A stretch of 64,000 bases of DNA from Gemmatimonadota bacterium (GTDB taxonomy: Bacteria > Gemmatimonadota > Gemmatimonadetes > Longimicrobiales > Gaopeijiaceae): the NCBI GenBank assembly GCA_022563405.1, contig JADFNK010000005.1, positions 1-64,000 of the forward strand, given 5' to 3'. The notes beneath the pieces were generated by a model. The model made no database searches. It was not told the DNA's origin and saw nothing but the letters and a program-made list of their open reading frames with translations. This document shows, in pieces, positions 11,490 through 56,314 of this stretch (positions are counted from its first letter, which is position 1; each line of letters opens with the position of its first letter). The translations under genes were made by a program, and so were the position numbers.

Positions 11490-13214
11490 CTAGAAAGATT
11501 GCCGTACGATGTGCGGAGTCACCAGGATCATCAGATCCCGCTGTGTCTCCGAAATCGCAGTGGTGCGGAACAAGCCGCCAAGAAGCGGCAGGTTCATCAA
11601 GAGAGGGATCCCCGACCGAGTCTCGATACGTTCCGTCACGGTCAGCCCTCCCATGACCACGGTCTCGCCGTCGCGCACGAGCACTCGCGTGGTCACATTC
11701 TGAGTCCGGAAAATCAGCCCAATATCCGAGTCCGCGAAGTCCGCTGCCGAACGTTCGACCTCAAGGTCCAGAGAAATATGATCGCCCGTAATGTGCGGCG
11801 TGACCGTGAGAATTATTCCCGTCTCCTCGAAGCTTACCGTGGCCGTTGGGAAAGAACCGTCCCCCGCACCTCCGGCCGCCGCATCGATGATGCGGATCGG
11901 CGTCCTTTCACCGACCTGAATACGCGCCTCCTGGTTGTCCGTCACCGTGACGGACGGCGCCGCCTGGATATCCGAGAGATTTGAGGCCTCGAGCGCGCTG
12001 ACGAAGTTGATCAAGGTGTGCCGCCCGATGACCAATGAGGTCAAGAGACGCAACGTGGGGCTCGGGATAAAGGATTCCGCGTTCCCGAGAGCGGCAATCG
12101 AATTTCCTCCCAGCGAGAACACGTTCGTACCGATAGGCACGACCTCGATGACGCCATCACCATCGAGATCCGCGGCACCCGGAGCGAGCACGTTGAGCTG
12201 GTTGCCCTGCGAGTCCTTCAGATCATAGGAAATCCCAAGCTCCTTCAGATCCGTCCTGTTCACGAAGATGATCTTCGCGGAAATCATGATCTGGGGGGTC
12301 GGGGTGTCCAACTCCGTGATGAGGGCATTGACGGCCTCATGCACGCGCCGAATATCCGTAACGACGACCGAATTCTTGCCCACGACCTCTGCCACCTGTC
12401 CACGCTCGCTGATGAGCTGCCCGACGGCTTGGGCCACCTCGCCTGACGTCAAGTAGGCGATTGGGTACACCACGGTCTCGAGGGGCTCGATCGTCTCGCG
12501 TTCGAACATGTTCTGGATCATGTTGATCTGAATGATGCCGGTTTCACTTTCGGTCCCGACCAGGCCCCGGCTCTGAAGAATTTCCTCCAGGGCGTCATCC
12601 CATGCCTGGTCGAGGATGTTGGCCGTGACCACGATATTGGACACGCCGGTGCCCGCGACGATGGATTTACCCGAGAATTCCGAGAAGATGAATAGCACCT
12701 CATCAATGGGGATGCCGGGGAAAAAGACACTGATCAAAGCGGCTTCCTGAGTTTGCGCGGCAGCCTCGACAAACGGGGCCGCCCTCGCGACGAACCTCGG
12801 ATCGAAGACCGGATCGAAGCTCAAGGTCGGGCTTTCCCAGGGAGCAAAAGCTCCAGCCGGATTGTCCAACGAAATACGAACCGCTCCGTTCGACTGCTCG
12901 ACCGTGTATTCAGTCAGCCCCTCGAGGTCCACCACAACCCGGACAATGTCGTCCGCATACTGGCTGGTGCGGACCGACAGAACCCCGCCACGGTCGATAT
13001 CCAGAAAGTCTTCCTGGGAGAGCGCGTGCCTCGCATTCAAGAGGTCGACGACGATACGCGGCGGCGACTCCAAGCTGAACGCTCTGAAGGAGACCGAACC
13101 GTCGACCGCGACGAGAATATCGGTCCGGTTCAGGTTCGGTACGACACTTACTCCGGTGACCAGCTCGCTGGCCGACAGAAGTAACCCAATCAATAACGTG
13201 AGTATCGAAGTCAT
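11490..13214 (-). CDS. pilQ: Type IV pilus secretin PilQ
   Basis: AMIN-like N-terminus, IDEVLFIFSEFSGKSIVAGTGV, secretin domain VPLLMNLPLLGGLFRTTAISETQRDLMILVTPHIV (sequence: IPLLMNLPLLGGLFRT). Confidence 0.92.
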   Translation of the reverse strand: MTSILTLLIGLLLSASELVTGVSVVPNLNRTDILVAVDGSVSFRAFSLESPPRIVVDLLNARHALSQEDFLDIDRGGVLSVRTSQYADDIVRVVVDLEGLTEYTVEQSNGAVRISLDNPAGAFAPWESPTLSFDPVFDPRFVARAAPFVEAAAQTQEAALISVFFPGIPIDEVLFIFSEFSGKSIVAGTGVSNIVVTANILDQAWDDALEEILQSRGLVGTESETGIIQINMIQNMFERETIEPLETVVYPIAYLTSGEVAQAVGQLISERGQVAEVVGKNSVVVTDIRRVHEAVNALITELDTPTPQIMISAKIIFVNRTDLKELGISYDLKDSQGNQLNVLAPGAADLDGDGVIEVVPIGTNVFSLGGNSIAALGNAESFIPSPTLRLLTSLVIGRHTLINFVSALEASNLSDIQAAPSVTVTDNQEARIQVGERTPIRIIDAAAGGAGDGSFPTATVSFEETGIILTVTPHITGDHISLDLEVERSAADFADSDIGLIFRTQNVTTRVLVRDGETVVMGGLTVTERIETRSGIPLLMNLPLLGGLFRTTAISETQRDLMILVTPHIVRQSF

Positions 13215-13777
13215 TAAGGGCCTCCGCCCGATGAAGCGCGTGGTAGCAACATGATTCTCGTTTCGACGCGACCAAATTCCGCGACCTCAACGATCACCTG
13301 GTCAACTGCGATGGTCCGGACCGTCACGTTTCCGTTTCCCACGATTTCTCCCTCTCTCATTCGATAGGTCCTTCCAGTCACCTCCAGCGTGATCGTCTCC
13401 GGGACGCCAAGAGACGCGGGAATGACCGTTCTCGTGCCTTCACCGATGAGAGCGATGCTCTCACCAGCAAACGGCGAAGTAAGGAGCCCGAAGAGCACCA
13501 GAGCCTCGAAACGTGGACCCTCCTCACCACCCAGTAGCGACTTGAATGGGTTGCGACGGAAGTACTCAGGGTATACGAACACCTCTCGCTCAAAGGCCAA
13601 CGTCAAACTGTCGCCCGGCGACTGTGCGGGGGCGTCCTGCGTGTCCTGGCCCGTGAGTCCCCCCGGATCGAGCCAACCCACCGCGAGGAGGAAGAAACCC
13701 GCGCGGACGAACCTGATTCTCACGCGGTCCCACCTCCCCGATCGGAAACGACAAAGGTCTGGAATCATCAGCGCCAT
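13214..13777 (-). CDS. pilP: Type IV pilus assembly protein PilP-like (start may be GTG at 13723)
   Basis: Position between pilN and pilQ; FRRNPFKSLL, TLEVTGRTYRMREGEIVGNGNVTVRTI; signal-like VRIRFVRAGFFLLAVGW after an in-frame GTG preceded by GGGGAGGTGGG. Confidence 0.72.
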   Translation of the reverse strand: MALMIPDLCRFRSGRWDRVRIRFVRAGFFLLAVGWLDPGGLTGQDTQDAPAQSPGDSLTLAFEREVFVYPEYFRRNPFKSLLGGEEGPRFEALVLFGLLTSPFAGESIALIGEGTRTVIPASLGVPETITLEVTGRTYRMREGEIVGNGNVTVRTIAVDQVIVEVAEFGRVETRIMLLPRASSGGGP

Positions 13778-13784
13778 AGGTTGC

Positions 13785-14465
13785 CTACTGGTTGAGCGCG
13801 GGAAGATCTTCGCCGAAAAGCGGGATGGTCTCGAGGAAGTCCATCGACGGCCGTGAGTACACACAGTCCAGCTGGAACTGAACCACCATCTGACCCGTGG
13901 ACTGCAGGATTTGCTCAGACTGAACGAGCACAACGTCACGGATGAACGGAGATTCCTCTAGCTGCTCCCAGAACGTCGTCATAGCGAAGTTGTTCCCTGC
14001 CAGTCCTCGAATCTGGAACTCAACCGCCGCCCCCTCGCCCGAGACCTGGAGGATCTCCGTCAACCACGTGAAGTCGGGGAGAGCTCTCGCCACTTCATCC
14101 AAGAGATGAGGCCAGACGTACCGAAGGGCGTCGATCTCCTGGATGATATCAACTTTCAGCGCGATCGAGTCCCGCCGAGCCATCAGGCTCTCATTCTGCT
14201 GGATCAGGTCCGAATAGTTGCTCGAGTCCTGGACGGCGTCGGCCAACTGCACCTGAACCTCTTCCTGCCGGGAGGAGAGTCCCATGTACCAGTATCCGAG
14301 GGTGGCGAGGACCCCGACCACCACCACGACCGCCGCGATCGAGTAGGCATCCAGGGCAAGGCTTCCCAAGCTGGGCATCGACAGCTTCCCCAAGAAACCG
14401 CCACCTCCCCCACTCTTGGAGGGGCGCCTTTTCTTGCCGCCGGGCAGAAGATTGACTTCGATCAT
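13785..14465 (-). CDS. pilN: Type IV pilus assembly protein PilN
   Basis: MIEVNLLPGGKKRR start, single TM, coiled coil; follows pilM. Confidence 0.88.
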   Translation of the reverse strand: MIEVNLLPGGKKRRPSKSGGGGGFLGKLSMPSLGSLALDAYSIAAVVVVVGVLATLGYWYMGLSSRQEEVQVQLADAVQDSSNYSDLIQQNESLMARRDSIALKVDIIQEIDALRYVWPHLLDEVARALPDFTWLTEILQVSGEGAAVEFQIRGLAGNNFAMTTFWEQLEESPFIRDVVLVQSEQILQSTGQMVVQFQLDCVYSRPSMDFLETIPLFGEDLPALNQ

Positions 14466-14504
14466 GTTACCATTTCTCGTTCTCTTACCATTTCTCGTTC
14501 CTGC

Positions 14505-15542
14505 CTAGACAACCCGGAGGGCCAACCCGAGCGGAAGAAGGAGCATGGGCGCCGCTTCTTCCAGGTTGACTGACCCCGAAGCGCCAGGTTGGACCGGGAC
14601 TTGTTCGAACGGGTTGGCAAGGACCGTATTCAGGTTCATACGATTCCCCAAAGCATCAGCCATACCAGGAATGCGGGCGCCACCGCCACTGAGATAAATG
14701 CTCCCCAAGCCTCCACCGTCCTGGCGAGTCATGAGGAAAGCCGACGCCCGTTCGATGCCGACACCCACTTCATCCGCGGCAGACGCCACGAGGGTCGCGA
14801 GATCGTCGAGCTGCTCCCGACCCTGAACTACATCCTCGGCCTGCTCCGCAGTGAGTCCCTTCTCCCGCTGCAGGTCCTGACGCACCCTTCTGGACCCGAA
14901 GGGGATGTCTCGCGTGAGAAGAGGATTACCGTCCTCGAGGATATTCACGTTGGTGGTCTCGTGCCCAATGTTCACCAGCGCCACGATTCCCTTCATCGCC
15001 TCGGGATGGTTGTAGGAAAAGGCGTTGTGGAGTGCGAACGCATCGACCTCGATCGCTCCGGGGGAAACGCCGGCGTCGAGAAGCAGACTCACCTTATGGT
15101 CCACGAGCTCGCGCTTGGCAGCCACCAGCAAGACCTGCATTTGCAGACCCTCTCCGAGGGGATCGAGAATCTGGAAGTCCAACTCGACGCTCTTGATGTC
15201 GAACGGTACGTGTTGCTCCGCTTCCCACCGGATGACCTCACGAGCATCGGACTCGTTCATCCGGTCCATTTCGATCTTCTTGATGATCACGTCGTGTCCC
15301 CCAACGGCCGCGATCACATTCTTTCCCTTCAACCCGATCTCTCGGAACAATTCCCGAATCGTGTCTGCGACCAGGCCGGGGTCCATCACCTCGCCCTCGA
15401 CGATCGCGTCCGCTACGAGGGGCCGCATGGCGACCGCGCTGACCTCGGGCTGATCACCGGAATGATCGACGACAACGACTTTCACGAAGCCGCTGCCGAT
15501 GTCCAATCCTGCCGACTGCTTGTTGCGTCCGAAGAGGCCCAT
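14505..15542 (-). CDS. pilM: Type IV pilus assembly actin-like ATPase PilM
   Basis: SAGLDIGSGFVKVVVVDHSGD, ALVNIGHETTNVNILEDG, IYLSGGGARIPGMADAL. Confidence 0.93.
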   Translation of the reverse strand: MGLFGRNKQSAGLDIGSGFVKVVVVDHSGDQPEVSAVAMRPLVADAIVEGEVMDPGLVADTIRELFREIGLKGKNVIAAVGGHDVIIKKIEMDRMNESDAREVIRWEAEQHVPFDIKSVELDFQILDPLGEGLQMQVLLVAAKRELVDHKVSLLLDAGVSPGAIEVDAFALHNAFSYNHPEAMKGIVALVNIGHETTNVNILEDGNPLLTRDIPFGSRRVRQDLQREKGLTAEQAEDVVQGREQLDDLATLVASAADEVGVGIERASAFLMTRQDGGGLGSIYLSGGGARIPGMADALGNRMNLNTVLANPFEQVPVQPGASGSVNLEEAAPMLLLPLGLALRVV

Positions 15543-15594
15543 TCAACGCTCATCTTATCGGGACGGGAACATATTTTTACGCGAAACTTAATTC

Positions 15595-15624
15595 ACGTTA
15601 CCACTTAAACGTGAGTAGTGTCAA
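15595..15624 (-). promoter_or_regulatory. Candidate sigma-70-type promoter upstream of pilM
   Basis: Minus strand TTGACA-N18-TAACGT. Confidence 0.5.
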
Positions 15625-15818
15625 GATATTTCTGGCAAACGCGCGATCCCAATTATTGGTAAACATTTGGCGAACGATGTGCCGCTCTGGAAGTGAACTG
15701 CAGAGGGGAGGGGCCTTCTTCCGGCGCGACAGACAGCCGGCGCGCGGACCCGTCGGTCGCCCGATATGGGCGAGGGATCAAACCACCTTTTGGGGGGGCC
15801 GCAGAATCTAACTTCTGG

Positions 15819-16412
15819 CTACTCGGCCGGGGGCACTTCCACCCGATCCGGGGCAAGGTAAGTCTGAATCCGGAAGTTCACCTCCACCGGGGCGTCGAAG
15901 CCCATGGTCCCGGAGGGATCGGTGAACGGCACCAGTTGAAGGTCGCTCGGAGTGATGATCCGTGGCAGAGAGGCGAGTCCCGCCAGGAACCGGCCCACAT
16001 CGTGATATTCTCCGAGGACACGGATCTGGAAGGCCTGCTGGGCATAGACTTCACCCTGCACGACAGCGTCAGGACGAATACTGGGCTCGCTGACTCCGAC
16101 ATCACGAGCTACTTGAGACATCTGGTTCACCACTGAGGCAACTTCCTCGGAACTGGGGATCAGCTGTTCGAGCTCGGCGACGTGGCGCTCGATGAGGGCC
16201 ATTCTGTCCTCCAGGCCGCGCCCGGCGCTGATCGCCAATGCCTGTGCAGTGCGGTTTTGGGCTGCGAGATTTTCGACACGCGCCTCTTCGGCTTCGATTG
16301 TTTCAACAGCGCCGCTGTACCATTGGCTGTTGGCGAAGTACAGGACAACGAGCGAGACGGCGATCACCATAAGAGCTTTCTGTTGCTTCGGATCGTCCGG
16401 AATCAGCGCCAT
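15819..16412 (-). CDS. pilO: Type IV pilus assembly protein PilO
   Basis: TM then coiled coil, VVNQMSQVARDVGVSEPSIRPD, FQIRVLGEYHDVGRFLAGLASLPRIITPSDLQL; displaced upstream of pilM. Confidence 0.88.
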   Translation of the reverse strand: MALIPDDPKQQKALMVIAVSLVVLYFANSQWYSGAVETIEAEEARVENLAAQNRTAQALAISAGRGLEDRMALIERHVAELEQLIPSSEEVASVVNQMSQVARDVGVSEPSIRPDAVVQGEVYAQQAFQIRVLGEYHDVGRFLAGLASLPRIITPSDLQLVPFTDPSGTMGFDAPVEVNFRIQTYLAPDRVEVPPAE

Positions 16413-16414
16413 GG

Positions 16415-16471
16415 GTTACCTATTGGTTGACCGCCACCGGGTCCGTGCCAAGAAACGGCACAGCCCTCATG
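16415..16471 (-). pseudogene. Remnant of a second pilN C-terminus (16-codon ORF MRAVPFLGTDPVAVNQ*)
   Basis: Resembles intact PilN C-terminus LETIPLFGEDLPALNQ*; TCAACCAATAGGTAACCCATGGCGCTGAT (16402-16430) matches TCAACCAGTAGGCAACCTATGGCGCTGAT (13767-13795) at 26 of 29 positions. Confidence 0.6.
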
Positions 16472-16510
16472 AATCCCGAGAGAAACATATTTTTACCAAA
16501 AACCAAATTA

Positions 16511-16540
16511 AGATTACTACCGGGATTTGAATGCTGTCAA
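16511..16540 (-). promoter_or_regulatory. Candidate sigma-70-type promoter upstream of pilN remnant/pilO
   Basis: Minus strand TTGACA-N18-TAATCT; flanks resemble the pilM upstream region. Confidence 0.5.
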
Positions 16541-16599
16541 GGATTTTTTAGCTCAAGAAGAGTCGAAATGTCAGTAAACCTTTGACCGAGGCGCGAACG

Positions 16600-17712
16600 T
16601 CAGTGGGAGTCCGGCCAGGCCGATTCGGGGATAGGGGCGAGTTCCCGAAACTGTGTGGCAGCGTTTAAAGCCGACAGCAGCGCACACGCCGAACCGACAA
16701 TACGTGAACGGCCCTTGAGGGAGACGACTCCGCGGACGCGGACGAGTCCGTGGATTTCGGACTCCCCGGTAATCTCGAGGTCGCCCCCAACCACCACCAG
16801 CCCGTAGTAGCGGGCGGCGGATTGAAAGATCGCATCCCCCACGATCAGCAGGACACCCTGGCCCTGCCCTCCGTTCACGATCAACGAACCCTCGGATTTC
16901 ACCGTTGGCCTGTACGTCATACACGGATCGGAGATATCCAACGGAGCTCCCCAGTTGGTGGGAGAGGACACGGCACATCGGCCGAAGCGATTGATCGGCG
17001 AAGGCGAGATCGTTCCGGACACTTGGACATCCGCACCCTCCAACAGCTTGTCGTGCCCCAGGAGACCCAGGGAGGGTAGACGTGGCTCGATCGCACCCGC
17101 TCCGCCCTCTCTTCCAAGCTCGGCCCGCGGATCCTCGTGCAGTTCTGCTCGAGGCGAAATCCCTGATGTGAACAGGGTATCCACATCAGAACTGAAACGA
17201 TCACAAAACGCCGCGGGCCACATAGCGGGCGCCTCGTGAATCAGGGTGGCGTCCACCATGCTGCCTGCCTCCACCCGTGCCGGTCCGCCACTCTCGAGGA
17301 CGCCCCTCGCCGCCGCGAACCGCGCCACAGGGTCCATCGCCCAATAGAGACCCACCTGCCGATCTCGGCCGGGCCCCGTGTCCAACCACCCCTCGGAATG
17401 GATCAAGAGGACCTCCCGCGACAAACGCACAGCCCTCGCCTCATATCGCGCCCGGGGCGGAACGGCGACCGAACCCATGGATACCCATTCCCCCCACGGA
17501 AGGGAGTCGATACGCGTCATCCCGCGAGCGGTCAGATCCCTGCCCGTCTCGGCAGCGAACCGCCTGGCGAGCATGTCCCAGCGCGCCTGCGACACGAAGA
17601 ACTCGGATCGAGTCATCACGAGAAGCGTGTGCCCCACCCCCGTGACCGCAAGCAGGAGGAGCAGAACCGCAACCAGCACGTACCCTCGCCGTACTTCTTC
17701 GACCTTCTGCAT
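16600..17712 (-). CDS. PilX/GspK-like minor pilus assembly protein
   Basis: MQKVEEVRRG|YVLVAVLLLLLAVTGVGHTLLVMTRSEF prepilin-like N-terminus without Glu at +5; in minor pseudopilin cluster. Confidence 0.6.
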   Translation of the reverse strand: MQKVEEVRRGYVLVAVLLLLLAVTGVGHTLLVMTRSEFFVSQARWDMLARRFAAETGRDLTARGMTRIDSLPWGEWVSMGSVAVPPRARYEARAVRLSREVLLIHSEGWLDTGPGRDRQVGLYWAMDPVARFAAARGVLESGGPARVEAGSMVDATLIHEAPAMWPAAFCDRFSSDVDTLFTSGISPRAELHEDPRAELGREGGAGAIEPRLPSLGLLGHDKLLEGADVQVSGTISPSPINRFGRCAVSSPTNWGAPLDISDPCMTYRPTVKSEGSLIVNGGQGQGVLLIVGDAIFQSAARYYGLVVVGGDLEITGESEIHGLVRVRGVVSLKGRSRIVGSACALLSALNAATQFRELAPIPESAWPDSH

Positions 17713-17726
17713 TGAGCCGGCCTGGA

Positions 17727-18485
17727 TCAACGGATCTCGGGGATCCAAAACCGGAGGGCCGCCAAGCTATCATCGCCCGGGTTCGACCGGTCGGCAGCCA
17801 ACCGGAAAACGACCCCCGCCTCACGGGCCTCAATGCTCGATCTGTCGTCGTCGAACACATCTAGCGTGAGAGGCTGCCGGCCACCCCTGCCTCGGCGATA
17901 CCGCAGGGCCCCGCCACTGACATGATAACTCCCTCGTTCAAAGATTCTGGCTACCAACGCCCCCGGAACAGGCGGATCGATGGTCCACATTTCGACATCC
18001 CCGCCCAGATCCATCGAGCAGGACCCTACCCCCGGAGCCCGCCTCGTCAGATCCGCCCGCCGCCATCCATCAGCCGTCAAGATCAGGACGGAGTCCTTTA
18101 CCGGATTGGCCATCCGTTCCCCATGGTAGACCACCACGATATTTCCGGGATCGGGGCCCAGCCCACACACGGGCCCCCATCCACGGAAGGCCCGGAGCGA
18201 CAGACTGTCCGGGGCTCCAACGATCCAGTCCCTACCTCTCACCCCTGCCCGCAGTTCTTTGCCGATCACAACCGCCGCGAGACGCCGAGCCGAAAGGAGA
18301 TCCATTTGGGACCTGAGTCTGGACGCGACGGTACGTTGATGGGCGAGAGCCCTCCAGCCCAACGAGATCACCGCGAGCCCGAGAAGCAGAGACACGAGCA
18401 CTTCCACGACCGTGACGCCACAACGTACGTGAGGCCGTCGCCGGGAAGCCTGTTGCCGGATAGGCTGTTGGAGTCTAGGGAACAT
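17727..18485 (-). CDS. PilW-like minor pseudopilin
   Basis: CG|VTVVEVLVSLLLGLAVISLGW prepilin motif; between PilV-like and PilX-like genes. Confidence 0.65.
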   Translation of the reverse strand: MFPRLQQPIRQQASRRRPHVRCGVTVVEVLVSLLLGLAVISLGWRALAHQRTVASRLRSQMDLLSARRLAAVVIGKELRAGVRGRDWIVGAPDSLSLRAFRGWGPVCGLGPDPGNIVVVYHGERMANPVKDSVLILTADGWRRADLTRRAPGVGSCSMDLGGDVEMWTIDPPVPGALVARIFERGSYHVSGGALRYRRGRGGRQPLTLDVFDDDRSSIEAREAGVVFRLAADRSNPGDDSLAALRFWIPEIR

Positions 18486-50720: not shown

Positions 50721-54436
<3,716 letters not shown>

Positions 54437-54440
<4 letters not shown>

Positions 54441-56314
54441 GCGCGCAAGAAGCGAAGGAGACGGACGCCTTGAGGGAGCTCATCGACGACGGGCGCGTGC
54501 ACGTCATGGACGGGGCGATGGGAACGGAACTCTACGCTTGCGGGGTCTTCGTCAACGTTTCGTACGACGGGCTCAACCTCGAAACGCCCGACATAGTGGA
54601 GAACGTCCACCGGAACTACGTCAACGCCGGCGCCGAAGTCATCGAGACCAACACGTTCGGGGCCAATCCGGTCAAGCTCTCCAGCTATGGCCTGGCCGAC
54701 CGAACGGAAGAGATCAACCGCGCGGCTGTGCACCTGGCCCGGAGGGCAGCCCAGGACCGAGCCCTGGTGGTCGGCGCCATCGGGCCGCTGGGTATCCGCA
54801 TCGAACCGCTCGGGCCCACGTCGCGTGAGGAGGCCCAGGAGTTCTATCACCGGCAAGTCGATGGGCTCGTGGAGGGCGGGGTGGACGGTTTCGTTCTCGA
54901 GACCTTCAGCGACCTCAACGAGATGGAGCAAGCCTTCAAGGCCGTCCGGAGCCGATCGCCTCTCCCGGTCATTTGCCAGGTCACGGTGGGGGACGACGCT
55001 TGCACCTCGTACGGTACGTCTCCGGAGGACGTCGCGACCGAAGTCGCCGCTTGGGGCGCATCGGTGATCGGGCTCAATTGCTCCGTAGGGCCGGCCGTCA
55101 TGCTCGACGCAGTGGAGCGGATGGCCGAAGTGACCGACCTACCCCTTTCGGCCCAGCCCAATGCCGGTCTGCCCCGTGCCGTAGGCGATCGCAAGATCTA
55201 CCTGGCCAGCCCCGAGTACATGGCGCAGTACGCCCGTCGTATGATCGAAGCGGGAGCCCGCTTCGTGGGGGGGTGCTGCGGTACGAGTCCGGAACACATC
55301 CGGAGCATCCGAGCGCTGGTCGGCGGCGTGCGACCGCCGTCCACGCGAGTCCGCCCGGGCTCGCACGCCGAGCCACACGACACGCCCATTCAGCCGGAAG
55401 TGCCGCTCCGCGAGCGCTCCGAATGGGGACGGCAGCTCGCCGAGGGCACCTTCGTCACGAGTGTCGAGGTCACGCCGCCCAAGGGTTGGAACGCGGAAGT
55501 CCTCTTGGAGCAGTGCCGGGGCATCCAGAGCGCCGAAGCCGATACCGTGAACGTCCTCGATCACCCGCACTCCCCCAATCGGATGAGCGCTTTGCCAGCC
55601 GCCATGCTGATCCAACGGGAGGTGGGCATCGAGACGATCGTACACTATCCGTGCCGCGACCGGAACATGACTCGCATGATCAGCGACTTGCTTGGGGCCG
55701 CCGCTGCCGGGCTGCACAACCTCCTCCTCGTGACCGGTCGTCCCCCAGCTATGGGTCCCCACCCGGATTCCACGGCTTCACTCGACATCGACTCGATCGG
55801 ACTCACCAACGTGGTCCACGGCCTGAATCGGGGAGTCGATCCCGGGGGAAACGCGATCGGTGTACCCACGCGCTTCGTCATCGGGGTCAGGGTGAGTCAA
55901 GTCGCCGTGGACCAGGACCGGGAAGCAGGACGCTTGAACTGGAAGGTCGATGCCGGCGCCGACTTCGTTGTCACCCGGCCGGTGTTCGACGCGGGACGGC
56001 TCCATTCCTTCTTGGAGCGCGTGCCGGAGTTGTCCGTGCCCATCATCGCGAGCTTGCGACCGCTCACTTCTCTTCGCGAGGCCGAGTTCCTCCACAACGA
56101 GATTCCGGGCATCCACATCCCGGACCGAGTTCTGACCCGGATCGCCGATGCCGAAGCCCGAGGTGAGGATGCCGCGCGAGCGGAGGGTGTCTCCATCGCC
56201 CTGGAGGCATTCGAGGCCATCCGCGACTCCATCGCGGGCCTCCACATCCATGTCGCCGATGGCAACCTAGACGGCGCGTTGGAGCTCCTGTCCGAAATAC
56301 GAAACTCGGTCTAG
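54437..56314 (+). CDS. Homocysteine S-methyltransferase / methylenetetrahydrofolate reductase fusion
   Basis: [33 protein letters not shown] then [32 protein letters not shown] overlap with metH stop. Confidence 0.93.

Follow-up and report, generated by a model that had tools for sequence, protein, structure and literature searches.

The pil locus described here raises the question of how pilO came to lie upstream of pilM. The window, which is the whole 64,000-nucleotide stretch that was analysed, belongs to one MAG of an uncultured Gemmatimonadota bacterium (157 contigs, 90% complete), and the pilO-first arrangement is seen in this genome only among those compared. Read along the minus strand, the locus comprises a promoter, an open frame of 16 codons, pilO, a second promoter, then pilM, pilN, pilP and pilQ. 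This is the order that the initial annotation had described, with the open frame as a pilN remnant. Ahead of pilO the same strand carries an NtrC-type regulator, then minor-pilin-like genes. A pilin-associated gene upstream of pilO (16600-17748) has no Pfam match, and most relatives have an alignable gene in the corresponding position. The genes of the operon are as follows.

15819..16412, minus strand: intact pilO, now upstream of pilM (Pfam PF04350, E=2.3e-20)
14505..15542, minus strand: pilM (Pfam PF11104, E=3.7e-61)
13785..14465, minus strand: intact pilN (Pfam PF05137, E=2.5e-13)
13214..13723, minus strand: pilP from its ancestral GTG start, by alignment with PilP of the nearest relative, G001, whose ATG overlaps the pilO stop
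11490..13214, minus strand: pilQ secretin (Pfam PF00263, E=7.9e-43)

The content is that of a type IVa PilMNOPQ operon. PilM, PilN, PilO and the secretin PilQ are recognisable, and PilP, which has no Pfam match and was identified by alignment with G001, lies ahead of PilQ. The order is O-M-N-P-Q instead of M-N-O-P-Q. The genome has one PilO match only, at 15819..16412. The proteins should still assemble the usual type IV pilus alignment complex. Farther along the window (50721-56314), a full-length B12-dependent methionine synthase immediately precedes a homocysteine methyltransferase-MTHFR fusion protein.

The relatives keep the ancestral order pilM-N-O-P-Q intact, so the synteny comparison that the initial annotation called for does reveal such an ancestor. 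In family-wide searches, pilM precedes pilO in 82/83 family contigs with both genes, and the single exception is the window; five family contigs have pilO with pilM absent from the contig. A DNA-level reading found both genes in 38/40 relatives' loci, with pilM before pilO in all 38, G001 included. M, N and O stand in order at 74/80 loci from named genomes. The other six comprise three with a diverged pilO at the usual place and three that end too early or have no pilO match. The loci L142, L143 and L145 were considered as pilO-less and rejected, as a diverged pilO was found at the canonical place. G001 is of the same genus, its PilM is 92% identical, its order is canonical, and its pilO stop codon and pilP start overlap in ATGA. 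No PilM or PilO match was found in G002 and G003 (same genus; 73% and 85% complete), which may reflect pilus loss or assembly gaps; these two genomes thus contribute nothing to the comparison of gene order. The window joins G001 in the PilM, PilN and PilO trees, each with support of 100/98 or better. Since the three trees agree, an origin of pilO outside the genus is rejected. The flanking minor-pilin-like genes and the regulator are also the same in the window and the relatives.

The arrangement is best explained by duplication of promoter-pilM-N-O followed by complementary deletion, which would give pilO-M-N-P-Q (probability about 0.9, judged from sequence). The initial annotation proposed this history, and the collinear double copies that it predicts are all found: promoter, pilN tail, pilO head and pilO tail occur twice, collinear with one intact promoter-M-N-O unit. 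Both copies thus retain collinear remnants of the genes they lost. Since the remnant pairs include the pilO tail and the relatives are canonical, duplication with complementary deletion is well supported. The region 13721-16600, to which the event had been assigned, encloses its limits almost exactly.

The strongest remnant is the pilO tail between pilN and pilP, which the initial annotation overlooked.

13720..13777, minus strand: scar of the deleted second pilO, in which the pilO 5' end ATGGCGCTGAT runs straight into the pilO 3' tail; its counterpart by alignment in G001 is the pilO/pilP boundary

The sequence that separates pilN from pilP opens with the pilO start ATGGCGCTGAT and continues into TTCCAGACCTTTGTCGTTTCCGATCGGGGAGGTGGGACCGCGTGA. 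From 13764 to 13720 it reads, in the pilO frame, FQTFVVSDRGGGTA and a stop, which are the last 14 pilO codons plus stop. The peptide corresponding to the scar's FQTFVVSDRGGGTA is FQTYVVPER in G001, and the intact pilO of the window has IQTYLAPDR. Its TGA overlaps the pilP GTG start, so that the stop is placed as in relatives. A PilO C-terminal motif built from 64 PilO tails ranks the scar 2nd among 111,563 window positions in six frames, behind the true pilO. Since a pilO head is fused to a tail of this rank, a second pilO appears to have been deleted between the two. An in-frame ATG at 13777 would give pilP 18 more residues, read from the pilO scar.

The matching remnant in the other copy lies just before the intact pilO.

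16420..16470, minus strand: 16-codon mini-ORF MRAVPFLGTDPVAVNQ, in which the pilM leader runs into the pilN 3' tail

The mini-ORF had been matched to the PilN C-terminus, and on protein this stands. Aligned from the stop, it scores 34 against the PilN tail, a score equalled among 1,655 window ORF ends by the true pilN alone. When only the 12 residues ahead of the shared 3' block are scored, the true pilN is again the sole equal among these ends. When the mini-ORF and the pilN end are aligned simply as DNA, nothing beyond the 3' block (last 15 nt) is significant, but the protein comparison holds and identifies the mini-ORF as a putative pilN tail. A free-jump alignment of the two for breakpoint placing was overfitted, with several short jumps, and was discarded. 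The mini-ORF stop lies 7 nt ahead of the pilO ATG, which equals the pilN-pilO spacing in G001. The junction block before pilO was reported to match the pilN/pilP boundary at 26/29 positions; this is reproduced, with an alignment score of 26.1, whereas 300 shuffles reach at most 14.5. The pairwise alignments suggested alongside it thus exceed all shuffles for the junction block and the promoter regions, but not for mini-ORF and pilN DNA beyond the 3' block.

The promoter is the third duplicated element.

16479..16600, minus strand: copy-1 promoter region, which duplicates the sequence upstream of pilM and now precedes pilO; its alignment with 15543-15680 exceeds all shuffles
15543..15680, minus strand: copy-2 promoter region of pilM, 105/129 identical to the pilM upstream region of G001

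The two regions align with a score of 29.1 (shuffle maximum 14.5, 300 shuffles). Copy 1 has TTGACA (16540-16535), an 18-nt spacer and TAATCT (16516-16511), then TAAAAATATGTT; copy 2 has TTGACA (15624-15619), an 18-nt spacer and TAACGT (15600-15595). The common pilM promoter of the relatives consists of CAAATGTTTAC, TTGACA, an 18-nt spacer and a TAAnnT-type -10. Copy 1 equals copy 2 at 41/49 columns conserved in relatives and at 25/63 elsewhere (Fisher p=2.5e-6), with the conserved columns picked on copy 2 and the relatives, a choice that somewhat favours a difference. Since copy 1 agrees with copy 2 at the conserved columns, it seems to be constrained, and the duplicated promoter probably drives pilO.

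Some features of the pilM upstream region stand apart from this comparison. The conserved CAAATGTTTAC block lies upstream of TTGACA in the window, G001, G008, G020, G021, G015 and G022, and a AAATATGTT-like sequence downstream of the pilM -10 is common to the family. To our knowledge, a pilM promoter architecture with these two blocks has not been described. An inverted repeat, TCACGTTTAAGTGGTAACGTGA, lies over the pilM -10 region (15593-15614) and is absent from the copy-1 promoter; it is a possible operator.

These remnants suggest the following course. The ancestor would have had the usual promoter-pilM-N-O-P-Q, and the segment from the pilM promoter through pilO would have been doubled in direct orientation. 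In copy 1, a deletion would have joined the pilM leader to the last pilN codons, with loss of pilM and nearly all of pilN. In copy 2, the pilO body would have been deleted between near-repeats, TTCCGGAC near the pilO start and TTCCAGAC near the pilO end, and these are likely the short repeat used in that deletion. One functional copy per gene remained, so that a collapse of the duplication would cost a gene and the new order pilO-M-N-P-Q would be fixed. The duplication junction itself was not found in the spacer between the two copies.

15681..15818, minus strand: spacer at the copy-1/copy-2 junction, without detectable similarity and without a clear terminator

Searches of this spacer against pilP, the upstream pilin-like gene, G001 and the whole genome gave no match.

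Other histories could produce a pilO-first operon. A direct move, in which pilO was excised from its site after pilN and reinserted ahead of pilM, yields the same gene order, but leaves no second promoter, pilN tail, pilO head or pilO tail. All of these are found and are collinear, and since the pilO tail scar contradicts such a move outright, it is highly improbable. An assembly error or chimera might be suspected in a single genome of 157 contigs and 90% completeness. However, a misjoined canonical operon cannot yield a pilO head-tail fusion or promoter copies that are only 63% identical, the window is free of N, and the contig continues for 70 kb, so this explanation also has very little chance of being correct.

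Import of the second copy deserves more weight. Here promoter-pilM-N-O from a related strain would have recombined beside the resident operon before the complementary losses. Divergence between the copy-1 and copy-2 promoters is strong (70/111 identical) while copy 2 resembles G001 (105/129), and the copy-2 pilO scar looks nearer to the pilO of G001 than to the window's own. However, the PilO tree, like those of PilM and PilN, unites the window with G001 (100/98 for PilO), so any donor was a close relative, and four-way promoter site patterns (4/4/4) do not favour import. The strong divergence of copy 1 points either to fast evolution of this copy or to a duplication older than the split from G001, and the evenly split site patterns favour neither. 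Import is unlikely, and a tandem origin appears preferable.

Under duplication with complementary deletion, a further issue is whether the expression of pilO has changed. The initial annotation held that its stoichiometry and regulation would be separated from pilMNPQ. PilN pairs with PilO in heterodimers, and the native stoichiometry is important in Pseudomonas (PMC5805733). There is no convincing terminator between pilO and pilM; the sole scan match there sits in the pilM promoter. Neither the frequency of terminator-scan matches nor the folding of the spacer exceeds that of shuffled sequence. Since both promoters are of one type and a convincing terminator is absent, read-through is expected, and pilO transcripts probably continue into pilM-N-P-Q. 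The supply of PilO may be separated from that of its partners, but this part of the earlier claim is reduced to a possibility.

Selection for extra or separately controlled PilO would add a cause to the duplication and losses rather than replace them. Functional columns of the duplicated promoter are conserved, but the same conservation is expected if this promoter only keeps pilO at its old level, and both promoters are of one type, which makes adaptive rewiring rather doubtful. A regulatory change is also only tentatively suggested. In that case pilO would have its own conserved promoter and a coupling leader of 16 codons (pilM leader plus pilN tail), and the optional pilP start would add 18 residues from the dead pilO. 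Since the leader keeps the 7-nt stop-to-start spacing, translational coupling would be kept for pilO. If true, the locus would be a naturally preserved case of duplication and loss rewiring a near-invariant operon.

The locus resembles the canonical pilM-N-O-P-Q type IV pilus alignment operon in having all five genes on one strand, but differs in that pilO leads the operon and has a pilM promoter copy of its own upstream. The way in which bacterial gene order changes is debated, and duplication with per-copy loss usually leaves no visible trace. Tandem duplication-random loss is a model of gene-order change in mitochondrial genomes, and the papers retrieved on it were all mitochondrial. It shares with this locus the logic of a tandem copy and complementary loss, whereas here a bacterial protein-coding operon is affected and its promoter is duplicated. 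The route is also proposed for bacteria as SNAP, in which duplication and loss of different genes from each copy trap a new order (Brandis and Hughes 2020, PMC7055797). SNAP has been considered as a possible mechanism for ribosomal-operon rearrangements, where the precise mechanism could not be determined (PMC8046335). No bacterial operon case with both remnant sets appeared in titles and abstracts of the partial literature searched. Duplication, per-copy gene loss and a trapped order are also read here, but SNAP segments span tens to hundreds of genes kept by selection, and here about three genes are involved and selection is only a possible factor. The same pattern could be sought elsewhere, as gene tails just before the start of a downstream gene together with a duplicated promoter that precedes a displaced gene. 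Writing in 2020, the authors of SNAP saw no direct empirical evidence for it and stated that the completed process keeps no model-unique feature (PMC7055797). They expect no lasting unique feature, whereas here the scars of duplication and loss survive inside an operon of almost invariant order. Since fragments of both lost halves are legible in this near-fixed operon, the route can be read directly.
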